A stretch of DNA of 49,887 nucleotides, from positions 1 to 49,887 of the IMG/VR virus record IMGVR_UViG_3300025164_000141, one strand, 5' to 3'. The notes under the pieces were generated by a model. That model was not told where the DNA came from. It did not search any database and saw nothing but the letters and a program-made list of their open reading frames with translations. The stretch is from a virus. Positions 590 to 49,789 of this stretch are shown here, piece by piece. The first letter of the stretch is position 1, and the number at the start of each line of letters is the position of its first letter. Made by a program: the position numbers and the translations under genes.

Positions 590-1270
590 GTGAGACAAGA
601 CTATCAGGTCAACGAGATATTCTCCAGCATCCAGGGGGAGGGACGACAGGTCGGTAGGGTGGCTACGTTTATCCGCCTCCAGGGGTGTCCTGTCGGTTGC
701 GAGTGGTGCGATACGAAGTACACGTGGTTCAAGGGCGGCTCTCGTATGAGCCTCTACGAGATCTGGCAAGAGGTCCGACATCCTTGGGTAGTGATTACGG
801 GTGGGGAGCCTACCCTGTATGACCTAGATGGGCTGATAGAGGGCATCGACGAGCTGGACCAGGAGTTCAAGGAACGGCGACCTGCCCCACTCTACCGGGT
901 GTTCCAGTTGGAGACCTCCGGGCTCCATGAGCTCAAGGGTAAGCGAGTCCCAGACTGGGTTACGATCTCGCCCAAGCATCGACTCCAGTACCAGGTGCCC
1001 GACTCCCTGCTCAGGTATGCCAACGAGTTGAAGTTCGTGGTGGACGAGCACTTCACCCCCTCCATAGCCGAGGATCTACAGACCCGGTGCAACGAGATCA
1101 GTGTCCCCAACCCGGACTCTACCTTCCACCACGGTAGGGTGTCGGTAGTCCTCATGCCCGAAGGCTGCCCTCCCAAGCCTGAGATGATCGCTCTGACTCT
1201 CATCGTCCTCAACGACCACCCCGATTGGTTCTACGGCGATCGCATTCAGTATCGGATCGGAGTACCGTAA
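590..1270 (+). CDS. queE: 7-carboxy-7-deazaguanine synthase QueE (radical SAM)
   Basis: QueE rearranges 6-carboxy-tetrahydropterin to 7-carboxy-7-deazaguanine (CDG), the third step of preQ0 synthesis, using SAM and a 4Fe-4S cluster. The N-terminus has the family signature EIFSSIQGEG, then the cluster motif CPVGCEWC (Cys33, Cys37, Cys40), followed by DTKYTW. VVITGGEPTLYD is the SAM-binding GGE motif, and the central strand WVTISPKH matches the QueE core. At 226 residues the length is normal. It starts with GTG at 590 behind GGAGGAGGAA; no ATG lies near the N-terminus. It overlaps the next gene by one base (TAATG). All catalytic residues look intact, so it should be active. Confidence 0.93.
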   Translation: MRQDYQVNEIFSSIQGEGRQVGRVATFIRLQGCPVGCEWCDTKYTWFKGGSRMSLYEIWQEVRHPWVVITGGEPTLYDLDGLIEGIDELDQEFKERRPAPLYRVFQLETSGLHELKGKRVPDWVTISPKHRLQYQVPDSLLRYANELKFVVDEHFTPSIAEDLQTRCNEISVPNPDSTFHHGRVSVVLMPEGCPPKPEMIALTLIVLNDHPDWFYGDRIQYRIGVP

Positions 1271-1569
1271 TGACTAAGCAGAAGAAACTGATCAACTACC
1301 TCCGTGTGGAGGTGAGTATCGGGCGGGTTGACCCGCATCCTGAGCAGGACAAGGAGCCACTAGCCCGAACCTGCCACATCTGCAAGCATGGGTCCTTCGA
1401 GATGGTCTTCGATCGGAGGGAGGGGAAGGAGGATCCGGAGCGACTCCTACGCACTAAGAGGGGTCGAGCCTATGTCTGGCTGGTGCTCCATAGCGCCGCA
1501 TCCCACTACCTTCACCTTTTCATTACGGAGAACCTTAAGGCGATAGGACGATCGAAGGTGTGGGGATGA
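1270..1569 (+). CDS. hypothetical protein in the preQ0 operon
   Basis: This 99-residue protein has unknown function. The ATG at 1270 shares its A with the queE stop codon, and the gene ends overlapping the folE ATG (ATGA), so it is tightly coupled to both. The only visible motif is a single CHIC near residue 35 with no second Cys pair, so a zinc site would need other ligands. The rest is basic, with FDRREGKEDPERLLRTKRG followed by a hydrophobic helix around AYVWLVLHSAASHYLHLF that is probably soluble rather than membrane-spanning. Its place between queE and folE suggests a role tied to modification, but that is context only. Confidence 0.6.
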   Translation: MTKQKKLINYLRVEVSIGRVDPHPEQDKEPLARTCHICKHGSFEMVFDRREGKEDPERLLRTKRGRAYVWLVLHSAASHYLHLFITENLKAIGRSKVWG

Positions 1570-2099
1570 CTTACGAACTGGACTTACAGGAGATCCTATC
1601 CGGGATGTTCGGGGAGGACACCTGGGACGACTCCTCCAAACGAACAGCAGAGAGGGTGGTCAAGTACTGGGCAGAGTTCTACACTATGGGTAAGCCACCT
1701 AGGCTGACGACGTTCGAGGCGTATGCACAGCAGCTCATCGTAGTCAAGGGGATCCAGTTCTCTAGTATCTGCTGTCACCACCTACTGCCGTTCTTCGGAG
1801 AGGTCCATGTGGGATACCTTCCGCACACACGGATGGTCGGGCTCTCGAAGATACCCAGGGTGGTAGAGTACTTCTCACGGAGGCCTCAGACTCAGGAGCG
1901 AATGACGGCCAACATAGCAGACTACCTCAAGAAGGGACTTGAGGCCAAGGCCGTTGGAGTGGTAGTCCAAGCAACGCACACGTGCATGGTTGCCCGAGGC
2001 ATACGAGCTAATGGGGCAAGCATGCTTACGTCCGAGATGCGAGGAATCTTCCTCACCTCAGACCGCCCCCGAGCGGAGTTCCTGGAGTTGATCCGATGA
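1566..2099 (+). CDS. folE: GTP cyclohydrolase I FolE
   Basis: FolE converts GTP to dihydroneopterin triphosphate, the first committed step of both folate and preQ0 synthesis. The zinc ligands are visible: Cys69 and His72 in SSICCHHLLPF (usually CEHH, here CCHH) and Cys140 in THTCMVARG. VGLSKIPRVVEYFSRRPQTQER is the conserved helix-strand core with the Q.QER motif, and the C-terminus RAEFLELI matches the family. At 177 residues it is near the short end of bacterial FolE (about 180-220). The ATG at 1566 overlaps the preceding stop (ATGA); a GTG at 1560 is an alternative. The downstream gene starts at its own ATGA overlap. Confidence 0.93.
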   Translation: MTYELDLQEILSGMFGEDTWDDSSKRTAERVVKYWAEFYTMGKPPRLTTFEAYAQQLIVVKGIQFSSICCHHLLPFFGEVHVGYLPHTRMVGLSKIPRVVEYFSRRPQTQERMTANIADYLKKGLEAKAVGVVVQATHTCMVARGIRANGASMLTSEMRGIFLTSDRPRAEFLELIR

Positions 2100-2281
2100 G
2101 TTATTGGATAGACCATTGCAGAGTGTGTGGCACCTCCCTACAGCTCACACTACTGGAGGGTATCGGCTTCCGGGCGGACGGTACGAGGCTGTGGAAGACG
2201 TGGTCCGTTATGCGCTGCGTAATCTGTCTGGGATGGTGGGAGGTCATACATCGTGAAGATAGCCCATATAGTACCGACTGA
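2096..2281 (+). CDS. small zinc-ribbon-like protein
   Basis: This 61-residue protein has two Cys pairs, CRVC near residue 8 and CVIC near residue 41, a spacing typical of a zinc ribbon. The region between them is short strands with an aromatic cluster (LWKTW, LGWWEVI). It begins with ATGA overlapping the folE stop and extends 29 bases into dpdA. The function is unknown. Small Cys4 proteins of this kind are common in phages and can bind nucleic acid or protein partners. A link to base modification is suggested only by its place between folE and the transglycosylase. Confidence 0.6.
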   Translation: MSYWIDHCRVCGTSLQLTLLEGIGFRADGTRLWKTWSVMRCVICLGWWEVIHREDSPYSTD

Positions 2282-3014
2282 GAACTTGCAGCAGGTCGAG
2301 CACTATGGGTACCACATGGCCCTGGCTCCCCGATTGGAGCAGGACCCGGTGTATCGAGAGTGGTTCCGCCGCCAGCATAGCCTCGGGAAGTTCCTCATCG
2401 TCGACAACGGAGTTATGGAGCCCGAGCTTGGGGAGGCCCTGGACTTCCGGGAGGTGGTGGACCTGGCTAACTACGTAGGGGCGGACGAGGTATGCCTTCC
2501 CGACGTGCCCTACAGGGGGGAGGAGACCTACGACTCCACCAAGGAGGCCCAGCATCTAGTCGAACCCTGTCGAAGGCTATTGATCCCTCAGGGTGAGGAC
2601 TACACCCGGTATCTGATTTGTGCAGTTAGGCTACTACTCTTGGATCCGGTCTGCCTTGGCCTCAACCGGGCCCCTCTGAAGTTTGGGTACACCCGCTCCG
2701 ATGTGCTCAAGTACCTAGACAAGCACGGCTGGAGGTGGCGGGTACCTTTTCATGCGATGGGTCTGTGGGAGAACCCTGAGCGAGAGGTGGTCGAGCTCCG
2801 TGGGAAGGTTCGGGGCCTCGATACAGGTGCTGCTGCCGCCTGCGCTCAGCAGGGAGAGGGATTAAAGAAGAGAGAGGGGCACATCGGACTGGACCACAGA
2901 CTCGGGGTGGTTGCGTGGGGAACCCTGCAGCAGAACCTGGAGACACTAGATGGATGGGCTAATACTACCGAAGAGTCCGGGGGCGGACTGTCAGAACTGC
3001 ACCCTGAGGGCTGA
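2253..3014 (+). CDS. dpdA: DpdA-like DNA-guanine transglycosylase (7-deazaguanine insertion into DNA)
   Basis: The 253-residue protein aligns by motif with the TIM barrel of tRNA-guanine transglycosylases. FLIVDNGVMEPE holds Asp51, equivalent to the DSGGF general acid/base. ADEVCLPDVPY holds Asp84, equivalent to the base-recognising FDEC Asp. IPQGEDY matches the IVQGG base-binding loop, HAMGLWENPE matches the LMGVG.P.D strand, and RGLDTG supplies Asp190, the expected nucleophile. It is much shorter than tRNA TGT and lacks the C-terminal zinc site, as in phage DpdA enzymes that swap guanine in DNA for preQ0-type bases. It starts with GTG at 2253 and lies in one operon with folE, queD, queE and queC. 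No QueF, ArcS or amidotransferase fusion was seen, so dPreQ0 is the simplest predicted product. Confidence 0.82.
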   Translation: MKIAHIVPTENLQQVEHYGYHMALAPRLEQDPVYREWFRRQHSLGKFLIVDNGVMEPELGEALDFREVVDLANYVGADEVCLPDVPYRGEETYDSTKEAQHLVEPCRRLLIPQGEDYTRYLICAVRLLLLDPVCLGLNRAPLKFGYTRSDVLKYLDKHGWRWRVPFHAMGLWENPEREVVELRGKVRGLDTGAAAACAQQGEGLKKREGHIGLDHRLGVVAWGTLQQNLETLDGWANTTEESGGGLSELHPEG

Positions 3015-5409
3015 GGCATTTGTTCCACCTGCGGGCCCTGCACAGCCCCAGCTTGTAGTGGTGGGAGAGGCTCCGGGTGCGGATGAGGTCCGAGTGGGGG
3101 AGCCCTTCGTTGGGAAGTCTGGCCAGTTGCTCCAGGCCATGCTGAAGCAGGTTGGGCAGGAGTGGGAGGGGGTCTGGCGTACCAACGTGGTGCTGTGCAG
3201 GCCTCCGAAGAACCGAACCCCCACCCAGCTGGAGCAGAAGTGCTGTGCACCTAGGCTCTTTGAGGAGCTGGAGCAACTGGGAGAGTCCGTACCACTGGTG
3301 GCCCTAGGTCGGACAGCAGAGCACTCCCTCCGAGTAGAAGAGCAAGGGGTATGGTACGGGAACCGCATCTCGACCTACCACCCTGCCTACGTTCTCCGCA
3401 ACCCCAAGGAGGCCTATACGGTCTATCAGACCCTCCGTAAGGCCGTTCAGATCCCCCACCAGCAGCCGATCGAACCCCTAGTATTCGTATGTCAGAGTGT
3501 GGTGGAGGTTTACGACGCCCTTAGAGAGCTAGAGAAGCTTAACGATGGGCGTATACTTATCTGGGATCTGGAGACCGAGCAGAGGGTGTGGTACCGAGAT
3601 CCGATCCTCTGTATGCAGCTAGCTACTGACAATCTGAGTGCGGTGGTGGTTCCTAAGGAGTTCCTGCACCTCCCTGAGATTCGGGAAGGGGTGCGGAGCC
3701 TACTGCTGGGGTGGAAGGGGCCGAATGGAGGTCATAACGTCAAGTTTGACATGAACTTCCTAGCGGGGCAGTGGGGCGTGGACTGGGCATTCGAGCAGAG
3801 GCCCACGATTGATACGATGCTCATGCACTACGTCCTTAAGGAGACAACGGGGGAGCATGGCCTGAAGTTTCTTGCAGGGTACTACTTCGATGCACCTGAC
3901 TACGAGGCTGGTCTGGTAGGACCCTATCTCAGGTCGCAGGAGGACTTGTGGTCCAAGGTTCCGCCCCCCTTGCTTCATGAGTATGGTGGCAAGGACGTGT
4001 GCTACAACCGAATGCTCGTCGACCCTCTAGAAGGGGAAGTAAGGGCGCAGGGGTTGTGGGGCCTCTATGAGTTCCTCATGCAGGCCAACTGGGCCGTGCA
4101 CAAGATGGAGCAACGGGGCATTCGGATGGACCGGGAGTGGCTCAAGAAGGTAGAGGAGAGGCTATCTCAGGAGTGTTGGGAGCATACCGAGGAGATGGAG
4201 TTCATTGCGGACGAGGCCCTAGGTAGGTGGGGTGGGCAGGTGCCTCCCTGGTTCAACGGAGAGGAGCCGAAGCGGGCCCCGGCCAAGTTCCATCGGGTGA
4301 TTGAGAACATTGACGAGGATGGGCTGAACACCAATTCGCCCGACCAGCTAGCCGTACTGATGTTTGACCTGCTCGGGCTGCCCACAGCGATGGACCCCAA
4401 GGAGGGAAGGAAGCATCCACGAACCACAGCAGCCAATACCCTGCGTATACTTGAGAAACTCCCAACCCTAACGGAGGAACAAGGTGCGTTTCTTCAGGAA
4501 CTTATCTACTATCGCAAGAAGAATAAGCTTCTCACTGCGTATGTCAATAACCTTCTTCCGATTCTTGATGAGCAGGACCGTGTACACACCGGTTTCCTCA
4601 TCCACGGGACAGAGACCGGACGACTATCTGCTCGAGATCCAGCTCTCCAAACCATTCCACGAGAAGGGGATGAGAACGATCCTTTCTCGTCTCTCGGAAA
4701 CCTCATACGAGGGGCGTTTGTTCCCGCCCTGGGACACAAGCTTATCGTGGCAGACTACGCTCAGGCTGAGTTGCGAGTCGCAGCCCACCTATCCCAGGAA
4801 CCCTTCCTACTCCACGCCTTTAGATCCGGAAGGGATATCCACTCCTTCGTAACCGAGGGGATGTTCGGAGAGGGGTGGACGAAGGAGAATAGGTCGGAGA
4901 CCAAGCGACTAGTGTTCTGCACATTGTACGGAGGGACAGCCTATAACTTTGCCAGTGACTATGCCGTACCCTACGACCGGGCCCAGGTGATGTACGAAAA
5001 GCTGGTGGGACTGATGCCGGGGTTCTACGGACCAGGTGGCTACATCGACCAGCAGTTTGACCTACTGAGGCAGAGGGGCTACGTGGAGACCATCCTTGGC
5101 CGACGGCGGAGGGTCCCCCTTATCCTTGAGGAGAACCGGAAGGAAGCTCGGAAGATTGCACTCAATGCACCTATCCAGGGAGGGGCCCACGAACTTACGA
5201 TGCTCTCGTGGGTACAGCTAACCAAGCTGGGATACTTGACCATGTTGGAGGTGCATGACTCCGTACTACTAGAGGCCCGGGAAAGCGAGGCTGACCTGGT
5301 GGCGACGGAGGTCGAGAAGGTGATGGTACGGTGGGGGGAGAAGTACTATCCCTCAGTACCCTGGAAGGCCGATGTGAGAATCCGAAACCGATGGGGTCGA
5401 GATGAATGA
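2950..5409 (+). CDS. polA: Fusion of family-4 uracil-DNA glycosylase-like domain to family A DNA polymerase with 3'-5' exonuclease
   Basis: This is the replicative polymerase, 819 residues. Residues 10-175 match Fe-S (family 4) uracil-DNA glycosylase: CQNC (Cys14, Cys17), GEAPGADEV, EPFVGKSGQLL, CRPPKNRTPT with Cys83 and Cys98/99, and HPAYVLRNP. Next comes the exonuclease: WDLETE, GHNVKFDMNFL and YGGKDVCYN, all three motifs with their acidic residues. The polymerase has motif A IVADYAQAELR, motif B RSETKRLVFCTLYGG and motif C LEVHDSVLLEA (HDS rather than the usual HDE). Phe656 aligns with E. coli Phe762, the sugar-discriminating position. The start at 2950 overlaps dpdA by 65 bases and is needed to include the first two cysteines. 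A related N-terminal region is known in SPO1 polymerase. Confidence 0.93.
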   Translation: MDGLILPKSPGADCQNCTLRAEAFVPPAGPAQPQLVVVGEAPGADEVRVGEPFVGKSGQLLQAMLKQVGQEWEGVWRTNVVLCRPPKNRTPTQLEQKCCAPRLFEELEQLGESVPLVALGRTAEHSLRVEEQGVWYGNRISTYHPAYVLRNPKEAYTVYQTLRKAVQIPHQQPIEPLVFVCQSVVEVYDALRELEKLNDGRILIWDLETEQRVWYRDPILCMQLATDNLSAVVVPKEFLHLPEIREGVRSLLLGWKGPNGGHNVKFDMNFLAGQWGVDWAFEQRPTIDTMLMHYVLKETTGEHGLKFLAGYYFDAPDYEAGLVGPYLRSQEDLWSKVPPPLLHEYGGKDVCYNRMLVDPLEGEVRAQGLWGLYEFLMQANWAVHKMEQRGIRMDREWLKKVEERLSQECWEHTEEMEFIADEALGRWGGQVPPWFNGEEPKRAPAKFHRVIENIDEDGLNTNSPDQLAVLMFDLLGLPTAMDPKEGRKHPRTTAANTLRILEKLPTLTEEQGAFLQELIYYRKKNKLLTAYVNNLLPILDEQDRVHTGFLIHGTETGRLSARDPALQTIPREGDENDPFSSLGNLIRGAFVPALGHKLIVADYAQAELRVAAHLSQEPFLLHAFRSGRDIHSFVTEGMFGEGWTKENRSETKRLVFCTLYGGTAYNFASDYAVPYDRAQVMYEKLVGLMPGFYGPGGYIDQQFDLLRQRGYVETILGRRRRVPLILEENRKEARKIALNAPIQGGAHELTMLSWVQLTKLGYLTMLEVHDSVLLEARESEADLVATEVEKVMVRWGEKYYPSVPWKADVRIRNRWGRDE

Positions 5410-5872
5410 GCGCCAGCTAGCGGTAGTGTCCGAGATCATTCGGGACAAGGGGAGGATCTACGTTAAGGAGGTGGATGGGCTGCTACACGTTTCCATCCAC
5501 GTGTTCTCTCGGGATATTGGGCTGATCGATAAGCTGGCTCGCTCCGGGGTGGGGAGGGTGAATACTATTCCGGGAGGTACTCGCGACTGGTCATGGGCAA
5601 GGCGACACGAACTTCGCAAGTACCTTCCCGGAATTGTCTCCAGGATGCCGGAGGGTAGGAAGAAGGAGCTATTGGCAGAGGTTTACCGGAGTACGATTGC
5701 CGGGCAACGACGCCAGGAGGTCCTACTTGCCCTTCAGGCCGTCCTCCAAGGCCGTACCGAAGATGAAGGCGATCCAGACAGCGGCGATCGCCGTGGCGGA
5801 GGCCTCCGGGGGGATGCTGGCATCCCCGAGGGTGACGAAGGTGGCTCCGAAGGCGGCCAGGAACTTCCGTGA
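5402..5872 (+). CDS. hypothetical protein downstream of polymerase, faintly LAGLIDADG-endonuclease-like
   Basis: This 156-residue protein overlaps the polymerase end by 8 bases. Residues 15-95 read like the C-terminal half of a LAGLIDADG domain: strands RIYVKEVDG and LHVSIHVFSRD, a helix GLIDKLARSGVG, a strand WSWARRHELRKYLPGI, and RKKELLAEV. The acidic LAGLIDADG helix itself is missing, so this may be a relic, an inactive relative or an unrelated DNA-binding fold. The last 50 residues are Gly/Asp/Arg-rich and are encoded opposite the holin gene, so that tail may simply be read-through. Homing-type genes often sit next to phage polymerase genes, which fits, but the call is weak. Confidence 0.5.
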   Translation: MNERQLAVVSEIIRDKGRIYVKEVDGLLHVSIHVFSRDIGLIDKLARSGVGRVNTIPGGTRDWSWARRHELRKYLPGIVSRMPEGRKKELLAEVYRSTIAGQRRQEVLLALQAVLQGRTEDEGDPDSGDRRGGGLRGDAGIPEGDEGGSEGGQELP

Positions 5873-5941
5873 GGTCAGGGTGTACCAGATCTTGCCAAGT
5901 ACACGCCCGAACTCAAAACGCACGTTACTGGGTGAAGCCAT
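5723..5941 (-). CDS. holin-like small membrane protein
   Basis: This 72-residue protein has a charged N-terminus and two likely membrane segments, about residues 28-42 (FLAAFGATFVTLG) and 50-66 (ATAIAAVWIAFIFGTAL), ending in a short charged tail (EDGLKGK). It lies directly after the endolysin gene, 16 bases downstream, as the last gene of the late arm, behind AAAGGAGA. Holins form membrane lesions that release the endolysin, and this size and topology fits a class II holin. No sequence motif is diagnostic, so the call rests on topology and position. Its 3' part overlaps the convergent gene on the other strand by 150 bases. Confidence 0.7.
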   Translation of the reverse strand: MASPSNVRFEFGRVLGKIWYTLTSRKFLAAFGATFVTLGDASIPPEASATAIAAVWIAFIFGTALEDGLKGK

Positions 5942-5957
5942 GATACTGTCTCCTTTT

Positions 5958-6632
5958 CTAGTGTGAGTGCTTCAGAGCCCACAGCTCCGCAACCTTCTGT
6001 TCGAGGGTCAGTGGGGGCTCCTCGTCTTCACTGACCACCTGGGACCACGTACTCTCTAGTATCTTGTTCCTGTCCACCGCCTTCTGTATCCAGCCCGGAC
6101 GCGAGTGCCAGTCGAACTGCCAGATCAGGGGTTGCGGGCTCGGATACCCCTGAATGGAAGGCCAGCCTGGTATCTCCCGAATGGTGCCTTGATACTTGGG
6201 CCAAGCTAGCCAGATGTCTGCATTGTCGAGGATGACGGAACGGATCTGGTGGTAGTGGTTGAGCAACAGGTTGTAGTTAGAGTAGAACAGCCACTTCCTC
6301 CCTAGGATTCGAGCGCCCTCTTTAAGGGCGTCCGAGACCTGATTAAGGGGGAGGGCCCATTCAAGGTCTAGAGCATCCCGGACCTGTCCCGGAATGCGGG
6401 CGGCTAGGAAGTCGTCTAGTTCTGCACGCAAGGCTCGTTGGCCTCGGGGCAGTAGGTAGGATCCGAAGGGGACGTGATGGGACTGGAGGCCCTGAATGTG
6501 TGAGTCGTAGAGGGGGTCCTTGGAGTACCCTTGCCAGCATTGGACGATGGCAAACTCCATGAAGGCAGGGTCCCGCTGTTCCCACGTTACTGTTTGGTAC
6601 CTCGAGAGGTCTACTCCATACTTGTCAGGCAT
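5958..6632 (-). CDS. GH25 muramidase endolysin
   Basis: The 224-residue protein is a GH25 (Chalaropsis-type) lysozyme that cleaves the N-acetylmuramic acid to N-acetylglucosamine bond. YGVDLSRYQ at the N-terminus supplies the first catalytic-site Asp (Asp8). FAIVQCWQG is strand 2, and DALDLEWAL carries the Asp-x-Glu pair (Asp89, Glu91). WLFYSNYN and DIWLAWPKYQ are the later barrel strands, followed by WQFDW. The last 40 residues (helical, EEPPLTLEQKVAELWAL) are a short tail, perhaps a wall-binding or multimerising segment. There is no signal peptide, so export depends on the neighbouring holin. AAGGTGG precedes the ATG. Confidence 0.92.
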   Translation of the reverse strand: MPDKYGVDLSRYQTVTWEQRDPAFMEFAIVQCWQGYSKDPLYDSHIQGLQSHHVPFGSYLLPRGQRALRAELDDFLAARIPGQVRDALDLEWALPLNQVSDALKEGARILGRKWLFYSNYNLLLNHYHQIRSVILDNADIWLAWPKYQGTIREIPGWPSIQGYPSPQPLIWQFDWHSRPGWIQKAVDRNKILESTWSQVVSEDEEPPLTLEQKVAELWALKHSH

Positions 6633-7162: not shown

Positions 7163-7361
7163 CAGGGGCGGGCTCCTCCTGGCGACGATGAGGAGTGTAG
7201 GGCTGAGGGGGCTTAGGCCGGGTAGGGGAACTGAGGGTGAGGGAGGGGGGCTTGATGCCTTGAGAGCCGTAGTAGTGGCCCAGTCTCAGCCCTAGGTAGA
7301 ACCCAACGGCGCCGATTAGGAAGCCGGTGGCCCCGAGAAGCGATCCCACCACGTTCTCCAT
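7152..7361 (-). CDS. small single-pass membrane protein, possible lysis accessory
   Basis: This 69-residue protein has one strong membrane segment near residues 6-27 (GSLLGATGFLIGAVGFYLGL), followed by a Pro-rich, charged tail (PPSLTLSSPTRPKPPQPY). The ATG at 7361 was chosen; an ATG at 7379 would overlap the upstream gene by 64 bases. Its place next to the endolysin cluster and its topology would suit a second holin, an antiholin or a spanin-like protein. However, it lacks the lipobox or coiled coil expected of a spanin. The tail also overlaps the start of the following gene by 11 bases. Confidence 0.55.
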   Translation of the reverse strand: MENVVGSLLGATGFLIGAVGFYLGLRLGHYYGSQGIKPPSLTLSSPTRPKPPQPYTPHRRQEEPAPDES

Positions 7362-8164
7362 CTCTGATAGTACTCCCATTCCTTAGGATACTTGGCCCGT
7401 CTCTTCTTTTTCTCGAAGAACTTACCGAGCTCCTCGAGATACTTCAACCAGTCCTGCCCAAAGTTTACCAGCTCCTGAACGTACGAGGCTGGGAAATCCT
7501 CCTGGGTGAACACCCGTTCGATAGGTGGCGGGGGCTTGCCCGGAGATCGTTGGGGGTCAAAGGCCGACCGTACCCCCACCCGTCCCCGTACGGATCGCTT
7601 CCATCGTAGCTTGACCACCTTGGGGAAGCGCCGCATCCGACCTGTAATGGATGCTACTGGATCGAAGGGGCGATCCCCCACTAGGAAGTTGTTCCCATGT
7701 ATGGTTCCGTAGAGGAGAGCGGGAACCCGGTCTAAGGTAGCAACCACGTCGTTCAGGATCTCGAGATCTGTGAAGATGTAGACCTCGTACCCCGCTGCGA
7801 TGTACATAGCTACCTTGTTGGCATCGTACTCGTACATCCCCGGGCGGCTGTGCCAGTATACCCCTGCTACTTCGATGATGACCCGATAGTCGTAGAGGAT
7901 GAAGTCCGGTCGCAGACGTTCGGACTTGTCGTCCGTAAAGGGCATGTCGCCCCAGTAGTAGGAGAAGTAGAAATTGATCTGACGACGGATAAGCTCGGCA
8001 AAGATCATCTTCTCCGGTAGGGTGGCTGGGACGTCGGTCCAGTAGTCGATGAAGAAGGGGGGCTGCGTTAGGGCTCCCCAAGCTGCCCTTACCCCTAGGC
8101 GCCGGGAGGCCAGGAAGGACTGCACCCGATCCCAGTACCGTCGGTGCAGTAGCTGGCGTGGCAT
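7316..8164 (-). CDS. PD-(D/E)XK / Vsr-like nuclease domain protein in the tail operon
   Basis: This 282-residue protein has unknown role. Residues 55-140 have the order expected of a Vsr/DUF559-type nuclease fold: an N-terminal helix with Glu (LPEKMIFAELI), then RLRPDFILYDYRVIIEVAG with Asp and, about ten residues later, Glu before a hydrophobic strand, then a helix YDANKVAMYIAAGYEV and a strand YIFTDLEI. The usual lysine after the second acidic residue is not obvious, so activity is uncertain. The C-terminal 130 residues are basic (KVVKLRWKRSVRGRVG) and end in a Lys/Trp-rich helix. It sits between the propeller-type tail protein and the lysis genes, so it may be carried in or on the virion. 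Confidence 0.6.
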   Translation of the reverse strand: MPRQLLHRRYWDRVQSFLASRRLGVRAAWGALTQPPFFIDYWTDVPATLPEKMIFAELIRRQINFYFSYYWGDMPFTDDKSERLRPDFILYDYRVIIEVAGVYWHSRPGMYEYDANKVAMYIAAGYEVYIFTDLEILNDVVATLDRVPALLYGTIHGNNFLVGDRPFDPVASITGRMRRFPKVVKLRWKRSVRGRVGVRSAFDPQRSPGKPPPPIERVFTQEDFPASYVQELVNFGQDWLKYLEELGKFFEKKKRRAKYPKEWEYYQRWRTWWDRFSGPPAS

Positions 8165-36000: not shown

Positions 36001-36044
36001 TGGGGAAACCTGGAAAGAGGCCTACTGGCTAAGGGAGCGTGAGC

Positions 36045-36590
36045 ATGGACCCAAACGAAGGGGACGAGCCGGAACTCCTAGCGGAGCGAGGGCCCGGGGC
36101 GAGGGTAACGGATGAAAGCAAGATCCGAGGGATGATGCAGGGGGTGTACGACGACGTAGTAACAATGCTCCAGCAGGGGTTCTCCCCACAAGAGGTCTCG
36201 GAGGAGGCTGGCTGGTCTATCGGAACCATCTATAAGATCCAGCGGGCGGAGGGGATACATGGACGTCATCTTGCGGCAATAGAGCATGTGGATCAGGATG
36301 CATTCCTTCAGGACTACCGAGGTGGGATGCGGGTGGTCGAGGTCATGACGAAGTATAATCTACACTCCCTAGCATTCTATAAGCTCCTGACCATCCTGGG
36401 AGAGCCTACCCGGCGCAGGGATCCACTGAATCTAGAGGCCCGCAAGAGGCAGCTTGATGAGGCCATAGCCATGTATGAGCAGGGGTTCCTCATCTACGAG
36501 ATCGAATCGGAGACCGGTGTTGCCCAACCTACGCTCCACAAGGAGCTCCACGCAAGGGGTATACCCTTAAGGAGGCCCCGTGACCGGTGA
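36045..36590 (+). CDS. protein with three helix-turn-helix-like units, probable regulator
   Basis: This 181-residue protein is the first gene of the early arm. It contains three similar helix-turn-helix-type units: GFSPQEVSEEAGWSIGTIYK (about residues 47-66), GGMRVVEVMTKYNLHSLAFYK (about 92-112) and GFLIYEIESETGVAQPTLHK (about 146-165), each ending in a recognition-helix pattern. The acidic N-terminus (NEGDEPELLAER) lies outside them. It may bind the neighbouring inverted repeat. ATG 36045 sits behind AAGGGAG; a GTG at 36039 is an alternative. Three tandem units could recognise a long site, but the target is unknown. Confidence 0.65.
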   Translation: MDPNEGDEPELLAERGPGARVTDESKIRGMMQGVYDDVVTMLQQGFSPQEVSEEAGWSIGTIYKIQRAEGIHGRHLAAIEHVDQDAFLQDYRGGMRVVEVMTKYNLHSLAFYKLLTILGEPTRRRDPLNLEARKRQLDEAIAMYEQGFLIYEIESETGVAQPTLHKELHARGIPLRRPRDR

Positions 36591-36831
36591 TACAGAGGTC
36601 AAACGAAGGTACGTCATTGCTGGGAGCTACCAACAGTTCCGGGATCTAGTTAAGCAGAGGGGCTGGCCTGAGGGGGTAACGCGCTACGTTTCCGACGAAG
36701 AAGGGCTTAGAGGACGCTTTGCAGCCACCTTATATCTGTATGGGACGTGGAAGAGACAGAAGTGGTTTACGGCCGAGGTGGAGAGGTACCTGCGAGGGGG
36801 AGGTTGGGAGATAGTAGAATGCGAGGACTAA
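36580..36831 (+). CDS. hypothetical early protein
   Basis: This 83-residue protein starts with GTG at 36580, overlapping the upstream stop by 11 bases. It is rich in Arg, Lys and aromatic residues: YVIAGSYQQFRDLVKQRGWPEG is a strand-helix with a basic face, then TRYVSDEEGLRG and a compact strand region (ATLYLYGTWKRQKWFTAEVERYLR). The alternating pattern fits a small alpha-beta domain that could bind nucleic acid. No Cys motif, membrane segment or known family was seen. Confidence 0.55.
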   Translation: MTGDTEVKRRYVIAGSYQQFRDLVKQRGWPEGVTRYVSDEEGLRGRFAATLYLYGTWKRQKWFTAEVERYLRGGGWEIVECED

Positions 36832-36989
36832 GGGTCGTGGCAGATGTAGTGTACTGGGCCGTGATCGTCTTCCTAGTTGGGAGGTACTATTTGGCGGATC
36901 CGATGGATGTTAATCGAGATGGGGCTGTGAACGTACTTGACGTGCAAATGGTTGTCAATCGAGTTCTAGAGGGAGAAGGAGGGGAGTAG
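36819..36989 (+). CDS. 56-residue membrane-anchored dockerin-like calcium-loop protein
   Basis: The ATG at 36819 overlaps the upstream stop by 13 bases, and GGGAG lies 9 bases ahead. Residues 5-26 form a hydrophobic segment (VVADVVYWAVIVFLVGRYYLA) that is a signal anchor. Residues 30-41 are a textbook dockerin calcium loop with the D-x-N-x-D-G-x-x-N-x-x-D pattern (Asp30, Asn32, Asp34, Asn38, Asp41), followed by the helix VQMVVNRVLEG. Dockerins dock on cohesins in secreted enzyme complexes; only one of the usual two repeats is present. A role at the host membrane in early infection is possible but inferred. Confidence 0.65.
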   Translation: MRGLRVVADVVYWAVIVFLVGRYYLADPMDVNRDGAVNVLDVQMVVNRVLEGEGGE

Positions 36990-36993
36990 GAAC

Positions 36994-37278
36994 ATGAGCA
37001 GGCGATATAAGTATGAGCCGATTCACAACCAGGCCTACTGGAACGGGCGATGGATTGAGTCGGGAATCGTTCGTGGTCATGAGGTGGATACCGTCTATCT
37101 AGCCTTTGGGGACGAGCCGGGTAAGGAGAAGCTCCGGGTCCTGCTTGCATGGGATGAGGTGGCAACCTTAGTGTGGGCTCTGGGCGGCGCTCTTTATTCT
37201 GCGATGATGGACCTACCTAAGGGTGCGGACGTTAATCCCCGGCTGAAAGACTTCGGTCATGAGGAGTGGGGGCCATGA
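36994..37278 (+). CDS. hypothetical early protein
   Basis: This 94-residue protein starts at ATG 36994, four bases after the preceding stop. It is strand-rich at the start (YKYEPIHNQAYWNGRWIESGIVRG), followed by acidic loops (AFGDEPGKEKLRVLLAWDEV) and a hydrophobic helix (ATLVWALGGALYSAMMDLP) that may be buried or loosely membrane-associated. It is coupled to the next gene by ATGA. I recognise no family. It belongs to the first cluster of the early arm and could act on the host cell. Confidence 0.55.
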   Translation: MSRRYKYEPIHNQAYWNGRWIESGIVRGHEVDTVYLAFGDEPGKEKLRVLLAWDEVATLVWALGGALYSAMMDLPKGADVNPRLKDFGHEEWGP

Positions 37279-37622
37279 AGTGTCCGTATACGCGTGCACA
37301 GCTGCTAGAGAGGGATAACAAGGACTTTGGGGAGGGGCACCTAGAGGCGGTTAGGGGAATCTGGACCGAGACCGGGTGGTGGTGGGGGCAGGGAGTACTC
37401 CACGACCAGATGGCGGCGGAGCTGGGTGGGGTGAAGATCCTGGCTCGCTTTCGAAAGCAGTATGGGTGGGCTGCGAGAGTGGAGTTCGAGCCCGGTGCAG
37501 GGGTAGGGTTGGGGCTAACTATGCTCATGCAAGGGACGGGGATTACGGGGGAGGACCGGGTGGATGTGGAGTGGCCCGGGGGTAGAGGGCTCTCGATAGG
37601 TGAGGTGCTGAGTCGCTTTTGA
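37275..37622 (+). CDS. hypothetical early protein before the foreign island
   Basis: This 115-residue protein starts at ATG 37275, overlapping the upstream stop (ATGA). The helix YTRAQLLERDNKDFGEGHLEAVRG leads to strands and aromatic residues (GIWTETGWWWGQGVLHDQMA) and then a Gly-rich region (GAGVGLGLTMLMQGTGITGED). It has no Cys pair, signal or membrane segment. It is the last normal-composition gene before the AT-rich island, and a terminator-like hairpin follows its stop immediately, so the island was probably added just past an operon end. Confidence 0.55.
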   Translation: MKCPYTRAQLLERDNKDFGEGHLEAVRGIWTETGWWWGQGVLHDQMAAELGGVKILARFRKQYGWAARVEFEPGAGVGLGLTMLMQGTGITGEDRVDVEWPGGRGLSIGEVLSRF

Positions 37623-37675
37623 CGCTTTTCGGTCGGAGGACAAGCGTTTGTTTGTTCTTTCTTTTCTTGTTTGGT
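37622..37675 (+). terminator. probable intrinsic terminator before the island
   Basis: Arms ACGCTT (37622-37627) and AAGCGT (37642-37647) form a 6-bp stem with a 14-base loop, followed by a T-rich run over 37647-37675. This follows directly on the stop at 37622 and should end the first early transcript. Confidence 0.45.
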
Positions 37676-37712
37676 TCGGGGGTTGCTGTTTGGCGTTTGG
37701 CAATAGGGATTG

Positions 37713-38040
37713 CAATTGGTACACACCACCACAACAAATCATGCACCACCATGCACCACCATTGGCACCACAATATTTATTGCCAAGGTACGGACGGTTG
37801 ACAAATCACCAATTGACATGGCAGCCATCCCATCATGTGCCCCATGAAACACACATGAAATGTTAATGTACCATCCCCACCAATTGGTGTATAATGATGT
37901 TGCACATTAACAATTGGTGGTGATGGTGATATCAACACCCATCACCAAATCCAAATCACCACCATACATACATGGGTGGCACATCATGACCAAATTGACA
38001 ATTGGTGAATTGGTTGAATTGGGGGTGGACCCCACAATTG
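37713..38040. repeat. cluster of six CAATTG palindromes, four extended to CAATTGGT
   Basis: CAATTG occurs at 37713, 37810, 37881, 37911, 37999 and 38035 within 330 bases; a hexamer is expected about once per 4 kb. Four copies read CAATTGGT (37713, 37881, 37911, 37999). TATAAT (37890-37895) follows the third copy. They may be binding sites upstream of the island genes or a by-product of its skewed composition. Confidence 0.6.
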
Positions 38041-38234
38041 CTCAAAACATCATCACCAAAATGACCACCAAATCCACCAAATCCCATTACAAATATTGGG
38101 TGTACATGGATCACCAAATGGCCCAAACATTGGTGGAATTGTTTGGTGGTGATCCCAAATTCAAATTACAAAAATACATGCACATTGTCAACCACCGAAA
38201 ATTGGGGACCACACCCAACACCATTGACATTTGA
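37986..38234 (+). CDS. island-encoded small helical protein, unknown
   Basis: This 82-residue protein has an ATG at 37986 within a longer open frame from 37914. The sequence looks coded rather than random: LTIGELVELGVDPTIAQNIITKM is a clean helix-turn-helix-like opening, followed by KSHYKYWVYMDHQMAQTLVELFGG with alternating hydrophobic residues, then a basic tail (FKLQKYMHIVNHRKLG). Every Lys is AAA, as expected for the island. No strong ribosome binding site was seen. The function is unknown; a DNA-binding role would fit the helix pattern. Confidence 0.45.
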   Translation: MTKLTIGELVELGVDPTIAQNIITKMTTKSTKSHYKYWVYMDHQMAQTLVELFGGDPKFKLQKYMHIVNHRKLGTTPNTIDI

Positions 38235-38285
38235 CACCCCACCCCCACCCAACCCCATACCACCAATACACATGGCACATCCCCC

Positions 38286-38741
38286 ATGTGCATTTGGTGT
38301 TATCCCCATGAGCAACAAACATTCACCAAACCATTACCATCCATTAATGTGCCATTAATGTGCATCATGTATCATCATGTTGTCACCACCAAACCATCAT
38401 TTGTGATGGTATGTAACACCATGTCAAAATCCACCACATGCACACATGCACCACATGGCATGATGCCCATACATGGCACCAAACCATGTGATTGTGCTAT
38501 TATGGGCATCAAATGTTACCACACACACAAACCACCAATCAAAAAATACCTACCCAAATCATTCATTCGAAACATCAACACGGCTGCCCACAATGATGGT
38601 GCTCCACATGCCAAATGTGTCTGCTGCCATGTGTCATTCATCATGCCATATATGAACTATGGCACCACCACCCAGCCATCATTCCAATCACCCAAACATT
38701 GGTGCAATGATTGTGTGCCCCATGATTTCATGGCATCATAA
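38286..38741 (+). CDS. island-encoded Cys/His-rich putative zinc-binding protein
   Basis: The frame is 151 residues long, ending at 38741. The N-terminal part (CIWC near residue 2) may not be translated; an internal ATG at 38421 (MSKSTTC) gives 106 residues. The C-terminal half has KCVCC and, about 30 residues later, HWCNDC, a C-x2-C...C-x2-C zinc ribbon, preceded by PIKKYLPKSFIRN. Frequent Cys and His suggest more metal ligands. Homing-type and mobile-element nucleases often carry such ribbons, but no nuclease motif was seen, so this is a candidate only. Confidence 0.4.
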   Translation: MCIWCYPHEQQTFTKPLPSINVPLMCIMYHHVVTTKPSFVMVCNTMSKSTTCTHAPHGMMPIHGTKPCDCAIMGIKCYHTHKPPIKKYLPKSFIRNINTAAHNDGAPHAKCVCCHVSFIMPYMNYGTTTQPSFQSPKHWCNDCVPHDFMAS

Positions 38742-38770
38742 AATCCACTATAGAGAGGAGGTGATACCTA

Positions 38771-38950
38771 GTGCCCAAGATTACACTCGACATGTCCGAG
38801 AATGAGCACATGACCCTGCTGGAGGTACTAGCCAATGCCGTGGAGGAGGTAGTGCAGGAGGAGGCAGATGGCAGCGAGGAGTATACAAGCCAGGAGCTAG
38901 CCTTCCTGAAGCTAGTTCTCTCCCAGCTTCAACCAGATGCAACCTACTAA
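38771..38950 (+). CDS. small acidic protein at the start of the small-gene cluster
   Basis: A 59-residue gene starts with GTG at 38771, behind the very strong site AGAGAGGAGGTGA (38752-38764). The product is acidic and helical: MPKITLDMSENEHMTLLEVLANAVEEVVQEEADGSEEY, then a hydrophobic helix LAFLKLVLSQLQP. It marks the return to normal composition after the island. Short, negatively charged phage proteins can mimic DNA or inhibit host enzymes, but there is no direct evidence for that here. It is just below the usual 60-residue threshold. Confidence 0.55.
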   Translation: MPKITLDMSENEHMTLLEVLANAVEEVVQEEADGSEEYTSQELAFLKLVLSQLQPDATY

Positions 38951-41033: not shown

Positions 41034-41057
41034 GGGGAGGAGGGTTTGCTCCTCCCC
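41034..41057 (+). terminator. strong hairpin after excisionase-like gene
   Basis: GGGGAGGAG (41034-41042) and CTCCTCCCC (41049-41057) form a perfect 9-bp stem with a 6-base loop, 8 bases after the stop. There is no U-run, so Rho-independent termination would be weak. It may serve as an RNA processing or stability element. Confidence 0.4.
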
Positions 41058-42690: not shown

Positions 42691-44124
42691 ATGCCTGAGT
42701 TGTTCCCGTTTCAGGAGAAGGACGTCCAGAAGGCCCTTGGGCGGAACACCCTGATCGCAAGCGAATGTGGCATTGGCAAAACCGTCGAGGCCATCGAGGT
42801 AGTCCGCAGACGTCGGGTGGCAGGGGCTCGAGGTCCGGTCTTGGTCCTTTGCAACAACTCAGCAAAGGAACAGTGGGCAGACTTCATCCGAGCGTGGGAC
42901 CCTGGGGTAGAGGTGGTGGTGACTGGGAAGGCTGGCTCCTGGCCAACCGAGGGCCGGCCCGGGGTGGAACTCCGACACTACTTCCATCCTCGACACGACG
43001 TGTGGATACTAGCCCACCATGAAGCCCTCTCGTTGCCCAGGAAGGCTGAGGTACGGGCACGACGGTACTATCAGGCCCCACAGGTATGGCGTCAGTTTAT
43101 CTGGGAAGCAATCATCGTGGATGAGTGCCACCGTTACAAGGGTCGGAAGTCCCAGCGTACCGTATGGCTGATGGCCCTTGACGGCCTCTATCGGATGGGC
43201 ATGACGGGTACCCTTATCGAGAAGGACCCCTCCGATGCACAGCCCATACTTAAGTGGCTGTACCCCGGTCGCCCTGAATTTAAGAACTACTGGAAGTTCC
43301 GGGAGGAATGGTGCTTCTCTGAGAACGGGTGGCAGGGGCATAAGAAGTGGGGCGGAGTTAAACCCGGTCGTGAGAGAGAGTTTGCTGCCTTACTGGAGCC
43401 GTTCACCATCAGGAGAGGTAAGAGGGACCCTGACGTTGCGCCAGACCTACCACCGAAGATCGAGGAAGTCGTGCACCTGACTATGGAGCCTGACTCCCCT
43501 CAATACAAGCTCTACTCTAAGGTGGCTCGGTCCCAGGATCTCCAAGTCAAACTACCACCTGAGTTCACCGTAGGTGGGGATTGGCACCTCATCATACCTA
43601 ATGCTATGGCCCTACTGGTCAGGTTACAGCAGCTCCTCGCAGACCCCCGCATACTAGGTTTACGTGCCCCGTCCGTTAAGCAGGACTGGATTAAGGACTA
43701 CGTGGCTGACAACCCTAACGAGCCCATCGTCATCTTCACCAAGTTCCGACCAGTAGCCCAGACCCTGGCCCAGGATCTAGGGGCCGCTATAGCTATTGGC
43801 GGTCGGGTAGAGCGTTTGGACGATTGGCAACGGGGGGCTGTGCAAGTGCTGGTTGGGACGATTGCTAAGATGGGTGAGTCCCTTAACCTCCAGCAGGCTC
43901 GAACAGCCCTCTTCATGGACCATGAGTGGTCCTCGATCAAGATGCAACAGGCGTATGACCGGGTGGACCGTATCGACATTACGGAGAGCAAGCACATCGT
44001 CCACCTCGAAGTCAAGGGTACGGTCGATGTCCTTGTCCGTAAGGCCCTCAGCCACAAGTGGTCCGAACAGGAGCTGATATGGAACTTCCTTCGGGATCTC
44101 CAGGCCTCGGCCTCGACCCCTTAG
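42691..44124 (+). CDS. SNF2-like superfamily 2 helicase/translocase
   Basis: The 477-residue protein has all core motifs: Q-like FPFQEKDVQKAL, Walker A ASECGIGKT (Lys30), motif II DECH (144-147), motif III MGMTGTL, motif V GTIAKMGESLNLQQA and motif VI QAYDRVDRI. These match the SNF2/DEAD-like phage helicases that translocate on double-stranded DNA and remodel replication or recombination intermediates. The C-terminal domain has FTKFRPVAQTLAQDL. It starts at ATG 42691 with no gap after its neighbour. The following nuclease overlaps its end by 46 bases, so the two are co-expressed and may act together. Confidence 0.9.
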   Translation: MPELFPFQEKDVQKALGRNTLIASECGIGKTVEAIEVVRRRRVAGARGPVLVLCNNSAKEQWADFIRAWDPGVEVVVTGKAGSWPTEGRPGVELRHYFHPRHDVWILAHHEALSLPRKAEVRARRYYQAPQVWRQFIWEAIIVDECHRYKGRKSQRTVWLMALDGLYRMGMTGTLIEKDPSDAQPILKWLYPGRPEFKNYWKFREEWCFSENGWQGHKKWGGVKPGREREFAALLEPFTIRRGKRDPDVAPDLPPKIEEVVHLTMEPDSPQYKLYSKVARSQDLQVKLPPEFTVGGDWHLIIPNAMALLVRLQQLLADPRILGLRAPSVKQDWIKDYVADNPNEPIVIFTKFRPVAQTLAQDLGAAIAIGGRVERLDDWQRGAVQVLVGTIAKMGESLNLQQARTALFMDHEWSSIKMQQAYDRVDRIDITESKHIVHLEVKGTVDVLVRKALSHKWSEQELIWNFLRDLQASASTP

Positions 44125-49153: not shown

Positions 49154-49789
49154 ATGGACCCTGAAGGTGAACGGAACCATCCTCGAGCAGTAGTTCTAAC
49201 GTCGGGGGGCATCGATAGCACAGCCGCCTTGGCGTGGGCCATAGCGAGAGGCTGGAGGCCCGTGTCGATTTTCGTATGGCATGGGCAAAAGCAGGTCCAC
49301 CAGGAGAAGGAGGCCGTAGAGGCAATCATGGGGCACTACAGGCTCTACTACGATATGGAGAACCTCTCCGACCACCTATACCAGCCAGCAGGACCGAACT
49401 ACCTGATCCCCTTCAGGAATGCTGCGCTGCTCACCGTGGGGGTGGCGCTGGCGGAGAGGGAGGGGATCAAGTGGCTAGTGTTCGGGGGCTACTCCCAGCC
49501 AGGGTGGGGTTACGAGTACCCGGACTCGACCCCGGAGTTCCTAGGGGCCTTCGGAGCCTGCATCCAGATGGGGACCGGGGGCCGTGTGAGGCTGGTGTGT
49601 CCGTGGAGTGGGTGGACGAAGGACCAGGTAGTGCGCTGGGCCCTAGACCACCAGGTTCCACTGGAGTTGACGTGGACCTGCTATGCCCCAAGCCACCAAG
49701 GGAAGCCGTGTGGGGAGTGTCCAGCCTGCAAGAAGAGACGATGGGCTATGGAGGTGGCTCTTGGCGAAACATACCCACTCGATAACTAA
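49154..49789 (+). CDS. queC: 7-cyano-7-deazaguanine (preQ0) synthase QueC
   Basis: QueC converts CDG to preQ0 using ATP and ammonia, the last step of the pathway. The PP-loop SGGIDS is at residues 17-22 (VVLTSGGIDSTAAL), and SIFVWHGQKQVHQEKEA is the characteristic Q-x-H-x-x-E helix. YLIPFRNAALLTVG matches the P.RN motif, WTKDQVVRWAL precedes the zinc site, and CYAPSHQGKPCGECPACKKR supplies four Cys for zinc. The ATG follows the primase stop directly. At 211 residues it is slightly shorter than average. It lacks any amidotransferase extension, so it makes preQ0 rather than the archaeosine-type base. Confidence 0.93.
   Translation: MDPEGERNHPRAVVLTSGGIDSTAALAWAIARGWRPVSIFVWHGQKQVHQEKEAVEAIMGHYRLYYDMENLSDHLYQPAGPNYLIPFRNAALLTVGVALAEREGIKWLVFGGYSQPGWGYEYPDSTPEFLGAFGACIQMGTGGRVRLVCPWSGWTKDQVVRWALDHQVPLELTWTCYAPSHQGKPCGECPACKKRRWAMEVALGETYPLDN

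Follow-up and report, generated by a model that had tools for sequence, protein, structure and literature searches.

What keeps a kilobase of phage DNA almost free of a dinucleotide class that abounds in the rest of the same genome? The question is raised by the window, the whole stretch of 49,887 nucleotides analysed here (IMG/VR record IMGVR_UViG_3300025164_000141), in which AG, CT and CG nearly vanish over about 1 kb. When a dinucleotide class is all but banned from 1 kb of DNA, part of it coding, an explanation is needed even if no link to DNA modification is drawn. We examine here whether the island is foreign or resident, which sequence rule it obeys, and whether it may be a zone that the phage keeps free of its own 7-deazaguanine modification.

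Dinucleotide composition of the island

Between positions 37650 and 38750, AG occurs 5 times, CT 13 times and CG 7 times (obs/exp 0.09, 0.17 and 0.14, respectively); outside this interval the ratios are 1.22, 1.19 and 0.73. A hand count in a preliminary description of the window (4 AG, 8 CT, 5 CG and 27 CATG) was close to these numbers, and the bias, which it had allowed might vanish on proper counting, persists. In a two-composition maximum-score scan of the 50 kb, the island was the top segment with a log-likelihood ratio of 326. The runner-up scored 12.6 and nothing comparable occurs elsewhere in the 50 kb, which bears out the statements that the rest of the genome lacks the bias and that no other DNA in the window is as unusual. 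The best MG/CK-depleted segment holds 17-18 MG/CK sites against 169 expected, and runs free of AG, CT and CG extend to 218 bases, compared with a longest run of 28 outside the island.

A single rule fits the island, namely no MG/CK: on neither strand does G follow A or C. Depletion of both strands had been listed as a separate observation; it is a fact, but not independent evidence, because the set of AG, CT and CG is closed under reverse complement and the effect is automatic. The claim that more than a coding preference is at work is upheld, as the non-coding parts of the island are depleted too. GA/TC (0.60) and TA (0.41) are also mildly low, and G+C is 44% in the island versus 57%. The excess of CATG (27 counted, 24 expected from trinucleotides) is mostly the outcome of a chain without AG, CT and CG. 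Avoidance of 4-base palindromes was considered and rejected, CATG, AATT and TGCA being common in the island.

Both edges are sharp and lie between the stop of the gene at 37266-37622 and the ribosome-binding site of the gene starting at 38771. In 200-bp windows, obs/exp is still 1.09 at 37500, has dropped to 0.15 by 37700 and to 0.03 from 37800 on, and recovers to 0.89 at 38700. The extent first given for the island (37650-38750) stands apart from its start, which lies near 37700. An assembly chimera or artefact was also considered, and no second contig runs over the island (3300002460_000630 starts at 41051, and 3300025119_000184 covers 2311-6570). This origin is nonetheless very unlikely: both edges are intergenic, the next ribosome-binding site is intact, the reading frame P1 has coding periodicity, and relatives carry homologues of the C-terminal part of P2 at the corresponding position.

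Table 1 Positions of the features discussed, in coordinates of the window
Feature	Position	Strand	Basis
QueD, 3' part; gene spans the contig ends	1..321	+	Pfam PTPS, 3.5e-12
QueE (radical SAM)	590..1270	+	NCBIfam, 2.3e-28
FolE (GTP cyclohydrolase I)	1560..2099	+	Pfam, 2.4e-55
DpdA-like DNA guanine transglycosylase	2253..3014	+	tblastn; alignment with CAjan and 9g DpdA
HTH DNA-binding protein marking the locus; homologues in G003, G004, G005 and G022	36039..36590	+	Homology searches
Terminator-like hairpin after the stop of gene 37266-37622, just 5' of the island	37635..37660	+	Hairpin scan
MG/CK-free island (G after A or C, either strand)	37709..38748	.	Counts, segment scan, 200-bp windows
Palindrome CACCAATTGGTG, TATAAT directly after; possible operator and -10 element	37878..37895	+	Inferred from sequence
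ORF P1, 82 aa from ATG, GGTGG upstream	37986..38234	+	3-base periodicity
ORF P2; C-terminal part (38526-38741) a predicted zinc-ribbon protein, CVCCHVSF...HWCNDCV	38286..38741	+	Homology to relatives' ORFs
Cluster of rule violations over the zinc-ribbon coding part	38545..38680	.	Binomial P=1e-4
Gene following the island, of ordinary phage type; GTG start and strong ribosome-binding site (~38756-38764)	38771..38950	+	Sequence
QueC	49154..49789	+	Pfam, 3.8e-35

Contents of the island and its flanks

The periodicity of P1 was significant against dinucleotide-preserving shuffles (P=0.001). Its single-sequence fold is poor (pLDDT 50), and the single-sequence AlphaFold models in the island were too poor for a structure search. 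Searches with Pfam, PHROGs, NCBIfam, PADLOC, PDB sequence, phage and plasmid tblastn and IMG/VR peptide scans returned no relatives of P1 or P2, and an Rfam search gave nothing above threshold. A weak match of P1 in Quinobequin-P09 was dismissed as chance; most of it falls before the probable start codon.

P2 was also compared directly with the reading frames of related phages. Against the ORF of L184, from the relative G022, it scored 67 versus 25.3 +/- 4.7 in shuffles (P=0.0005), and the comparison with the ORF of relative G004 gave P=0.016. The residues C, C, F, C and C are invariant in all three, and on this alignment the C-terminal part of P2 is a real zinc-ribbon protein; a scan with the alignment matched only G022 itself. 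Because P2 taken as a whole lacks 3-base periodicity, its N-terminal portion is possibly non-coding. Of the 17 rule violations, nine lie within the 136 of 1040 bases that code for the zinc ribbon (binomial P=1e-4), as would be expected if a ban on MG were balanced by protein constraint.

The same cluster bears on context-dependent mutation confined to the region, such as deamination or error-prone synthesis, which would account for a pattern at the dinucleotide level and for the enrichment of CA/TG. We consider this very unlikely. AA/TT, the product expected from C-to-T changes at CT, is not enriched and stays near expectation (0.93, 1.06), the clustering of violations over the conserved zinc ribbon fits selection against protein constraint, and the relatives described below lose different steps.

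A sigma-70 consensus scan found no full promoter at the palindrome upstream of P1, and the hairpin 5' of the island is within the chance number for such scans. Outside the island, a small reading frame at 36830-36990 contains, judging from its sequence, a dockerin-like repeat (DVNRDGAVNVLDVQMVVNRVL), which is unusual for a phage.

The phage genome and its modification genes

IMG/VR contig IMGVR_UViG_3300002460_000630 bridges the window ends 49887/1 with 5 extra bases (ACCTC) and joins the two parts of QueD. Because this contig runs over the ends, the window is an essentially complete circular phage genome of ~49,892 bp. FolE, QueD, QueE, QueC and DpdA, the gene set of a 7-deazaguanine-modifying phage, are all encoded, DpdA by remote homology. 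Phages with FolE/Que/DpdA sets insert 7-deazaguanines into their DNA (Hutinet et al. 2019, PMC6884629). With tblastn, the DpdA-like gene matched a DNA guanine transglycosylase annotated in Flavobacterium phage immuto (2e-4) and the homologous position in Weizmannia phage Youna2 (5e-12). Its protein aligns with the DpdA of CAjan and 9g, sharing two invariant Asp residues (D51 and D190) at an identity of 16-17%; the Pfam TGT model gave no match to the gene.

The replication block is ordered helicase, PD-(D/E)XK nuclease, AAA protein, DUF669 and primase, followed by QueC, QueD, QueE, FolE, the DpdA-like gene and DNA polymerase A. This gene order recurs in Youna2 and Bacillus phage BSP7, and the window phage has an SU10-type capsid protein. 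Two further genes were noted in passing: the DNA polymerase A gene (2950-5409) carries an N-terminal family-4 uracil-DNA glycosylase-like domain (NCBIfam TIGR00758, 1.1e-33), and a gene with a DUF559/Vsr-like nuclease domain lies amid structural genes (7316-8164).

The locus in related phages

Homologues of the HTH gene upstream of the island occur in 3300032046_000032 (G003), 3300035659_000019 (G004), 3300035675_000010 (G005) and 3300021090_000030 (G022), the last of which was picked up by its HTH gene and not by its DpdA; G004 and G022 both encode DpdA and QueC. When the 800-bp windows of each genome (~500) are ranked by deviation, the first-ranked one lies at most 3 kb downstream of the HTH gene in the window, G003, G004 and G005, and in G022 the HTH locus ranks just under the top. 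A homologous zinc-ribbon gene follows the HTH gene at the same locus in the window, G004 and G022. Since homologous HTH and zinc-ribbon genes occupy the same site in relatives, the locus is very probably resident rather than foreign.

The island had been described as the signature of another replicon, a reading that is not favoured, as no donor was found and the locus is common to related DpdA phages. A contaminant match had also been envisaged; searches of phage and plasmid DNA gave only chance hits. In its most explicit form, the foreign reading holds that a cassette (moron) was acquired from a small replicon with MG avoidance along its whole length, for example on account of a dinucleotide-sized restriction site. 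The sharp edges at gene boundaries, the lower G+C and the lack of a close relative of P1 in all collections searched speak for such a cassette. It remains improbable: the orthologous zinc-ribbon gene is present at the same locus in G004 and G022, where a moron's site would be empty, and no donor composition emerged. In the donor scan, which is blind to DNA of other word preferences and has an estimated sensitivity, all 20 IMG/VR contigs matched by the island-typical pattern proved ordinary (minimum obs/exp 0.59).

The signatures of the locus differ among the window, G003, G004 and G005, and some do not involve G. At the locus of G004, an 859-bp island is poor only in GG/CC (16 versus 60.3 expected), and at that of G022 a 974-bp island is poor in GC (5 versus 30.8 expected). 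This comparison of dinucleotide classes was exploratory, with a small control set of ordinary viral contigs, and two unrelated control contigs had CC/GG-poor stretches of 666-736 bp (obs/exp 0.22-0.27), so that the G004 island alone is not decisive. A degenerate short-repeat array (about GGTTTCTCATACTATTCTCAT; possible iterons) lies downstream of the HTH gene at 6620-7110 of L184. It forms the first half of the G022 island and may account for the scarcity of GC there. Loss of a G step is not universal at the HTH locus, as G003 shows only mild loss of GA/TC and G005 no sharp loss of any G step. None of the 75 DpdA loci scanned had an island as strong as that of the window.

Several additional observations were made in this set. 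The G005 locus is a homodinucleotide-rich region (AA/TT and CC/GG high, AC/GT low), and the G005 contig (L148 at its start, L150 at its end) is circular, judging by a direct repeat of ~0.1 kb shared by its two ends. Two more DpdA phages, G006 (L153, 8133-8848, obs/exp 0.25) and G014 (L176, 10843-11744, obs/exp 0.36), have GC-poor stretches close to the ends of their contigs, which are possible further islands. A lead in G019 was dropped as ordinary DNA.

Iggyviruses and other 7-deazaguanine phages

The phage Iggy is modified at a "single GA motif" according to the title of Olsen et al. 2023, cited in PMC11945000, and CAjan at two motifs according to the title of Kot et al. 2020, cited in PMC11780129. 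In the Pseudomonas Iggyvirus PBPA162 (L031), the strongest dinucleotide loss is that of GA/TC in a ~1-kb gap between early operons (42700-43700), with 20 GA/TC against 99 expected at 42877-43690, a weaker instance of such an island. GA avoidance in PBPA162 is wider than the gap, which is its extreme (0.26, with 0.61 in other intergenic DNA). Among 51 isolated SNPs of six Iggyvirus genomes, 5 toggle GA/TC versus 14.3 expected (z -3.4), and toggles of AG/CT, CG, GC, AC/GT and CC/GG are at expectation; AA/TT is second after GA/TC (z -2.3). The DpdA motif, as worded in the paper title, and the avoided step thus agree in Iggyvirus, both being GA.

In the genomes of Youna2, BSP7, CAjan and 9g, no such island was found. 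The equivalent test in Seuratvirus comprised only 8 SNPs in the GA-poor part. A GA/TC-poor stretch of Quinobequin was rejected as an island; it is a repetitive coding region rich in Gln, Pro and Ala.

Discussion

Local selection against one short G-containing sequence probably shaped the locus, and the most economical agent of selection on the islands is the phage's own DpdA. We propose that the island would be native to the early region of a phage that modifies its DNA with 7-deazaguanine, where the HTH gene is followed by regulatory DNA and two small genes, one of them encoding the zinc ribbon. DpdA would swap G for 7-deazaguanine at every copy of a short motif, and the island would have been purged of its own DpdA's dinucleotide, predicted to be MG (AG or CG), leaving neither strand modifiable. 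The motif-free stretch would keep plain G and so could be read by proteins that need unmodified DNA, candidates being a replication initiator, one of the locus's own proteins (HTH or zinc-ribbon) or the host RNA polymerase when infection starts. By the same reasoning from composition, the predicted specificities are MG for the DpdA of the window, GG for that of G004 and GC for that of G022.

Several findings favour the link to DpdA. The window phage has a complete preQ0 pathway with a DpdA-like gene, the depletion follows one rule (G with one class of 5' neighbour), a different G-containing step is avoided at the same locus in G004 (GG/CC) and G022 (GC), and the Iggyvirus gap and SNPs avoid GA, the motif reported by title. 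Against it stand the HTH loci of G003 and G005 and the genomes of Youna2, BSP7, CAjan and 9g, which show no sharp loss of a G step. Taken together, it is plausible, though we hold it tentatively, that each island avoids the dinucleotide of its own phage's DpdA and that the zone is not modified. More speculative still is the general form, in which 7-deazaguanine phages would keep a fixed early locus exempt from modification, the avoided step shifting with DpdA specificity.

The chief rival to the DpdA reading is that the resident locus serves as a replication origin or in regulation, its sequence being moulded by the binding of an initiator, by strand asymmetry or by an absence of secondary structure, with dinucleotide loss a by-product that varies among lineages. 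In the window, G003, G004 and G005, no other 800-bp window deviates as much as the locus, with varied signatures, some without G; in PBPA162, 9g and Youna2, deviation peaks in the largest gene-free gaps; and L184 carries its iteron-like array at the locus. Within 36750-38750, the + strand is keto-rich before ~37700 (+0.15 to +0.28) and amino-rich in the island (-0.20 to -0.26), and the amino/keto skew flips sharply there, from +0.28 to -0.20. The flip is in a terminus-like direction, however, and the only other origin features at the island are short inverted repeats. Moreover, neither binding sites nor skew require the almost complete exclusion of exactly one dinucleotide class from 1 kb, coding DNA included, and the Iggyvirus SNPs avoid GA/TC far above any other G-containing step. 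We regard this explanation as possible but rather unlikely. As a separate observation, the + strand has almost no A at 37646-37700.

An obligatory unmodified kilobase in DNA-hypermodifying phages has, to our knowledge, not been described so far. If the DpdA reading is true, such phages depend on leaving one defined kilobase without modification, the missing dinucleotide of a genome would disclose which sequence its DpdA recognises, and some step of infection, either the start of replication or the first transcription, would be intolerant of modified guanine.

Comparison with known systems

Phages are known to avoid restriction sites and their own modification motifs, which are sites of 4-6 bases depleted over the whole genome. 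The likeness is that a short sequence is absent because it is costly; the difference is that the window bans a dinucleotide class in 1 kb only, in a genome full of that class elsewhere. Phage morons and other accessory cassettes resemble the island in being small genes amid phage genes, of odd composition and possibly with a promoter of their own. They differ in that the locus of the window is orthologous in relatives, so that no recent acquisition is indicated on this evidence. A further parallel is with the Queuovirinae and related phages (9g, CAjan and Iggy; PMC6884629), which share the FolE-QueD-QueE-QueC-DpdA set beside helicase, primase and polymerase. The window DpdA is just 16-17% identical to those of CAjan and 9g, and the accessible parts of the literature on these phages make no mention of a motif-free island. 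Their motifs, by the titles cited in PMC11945000 and PMC11780129, are GA in Iggy and two motifs in CAjan, whereas that of the window is predicted to be MG.
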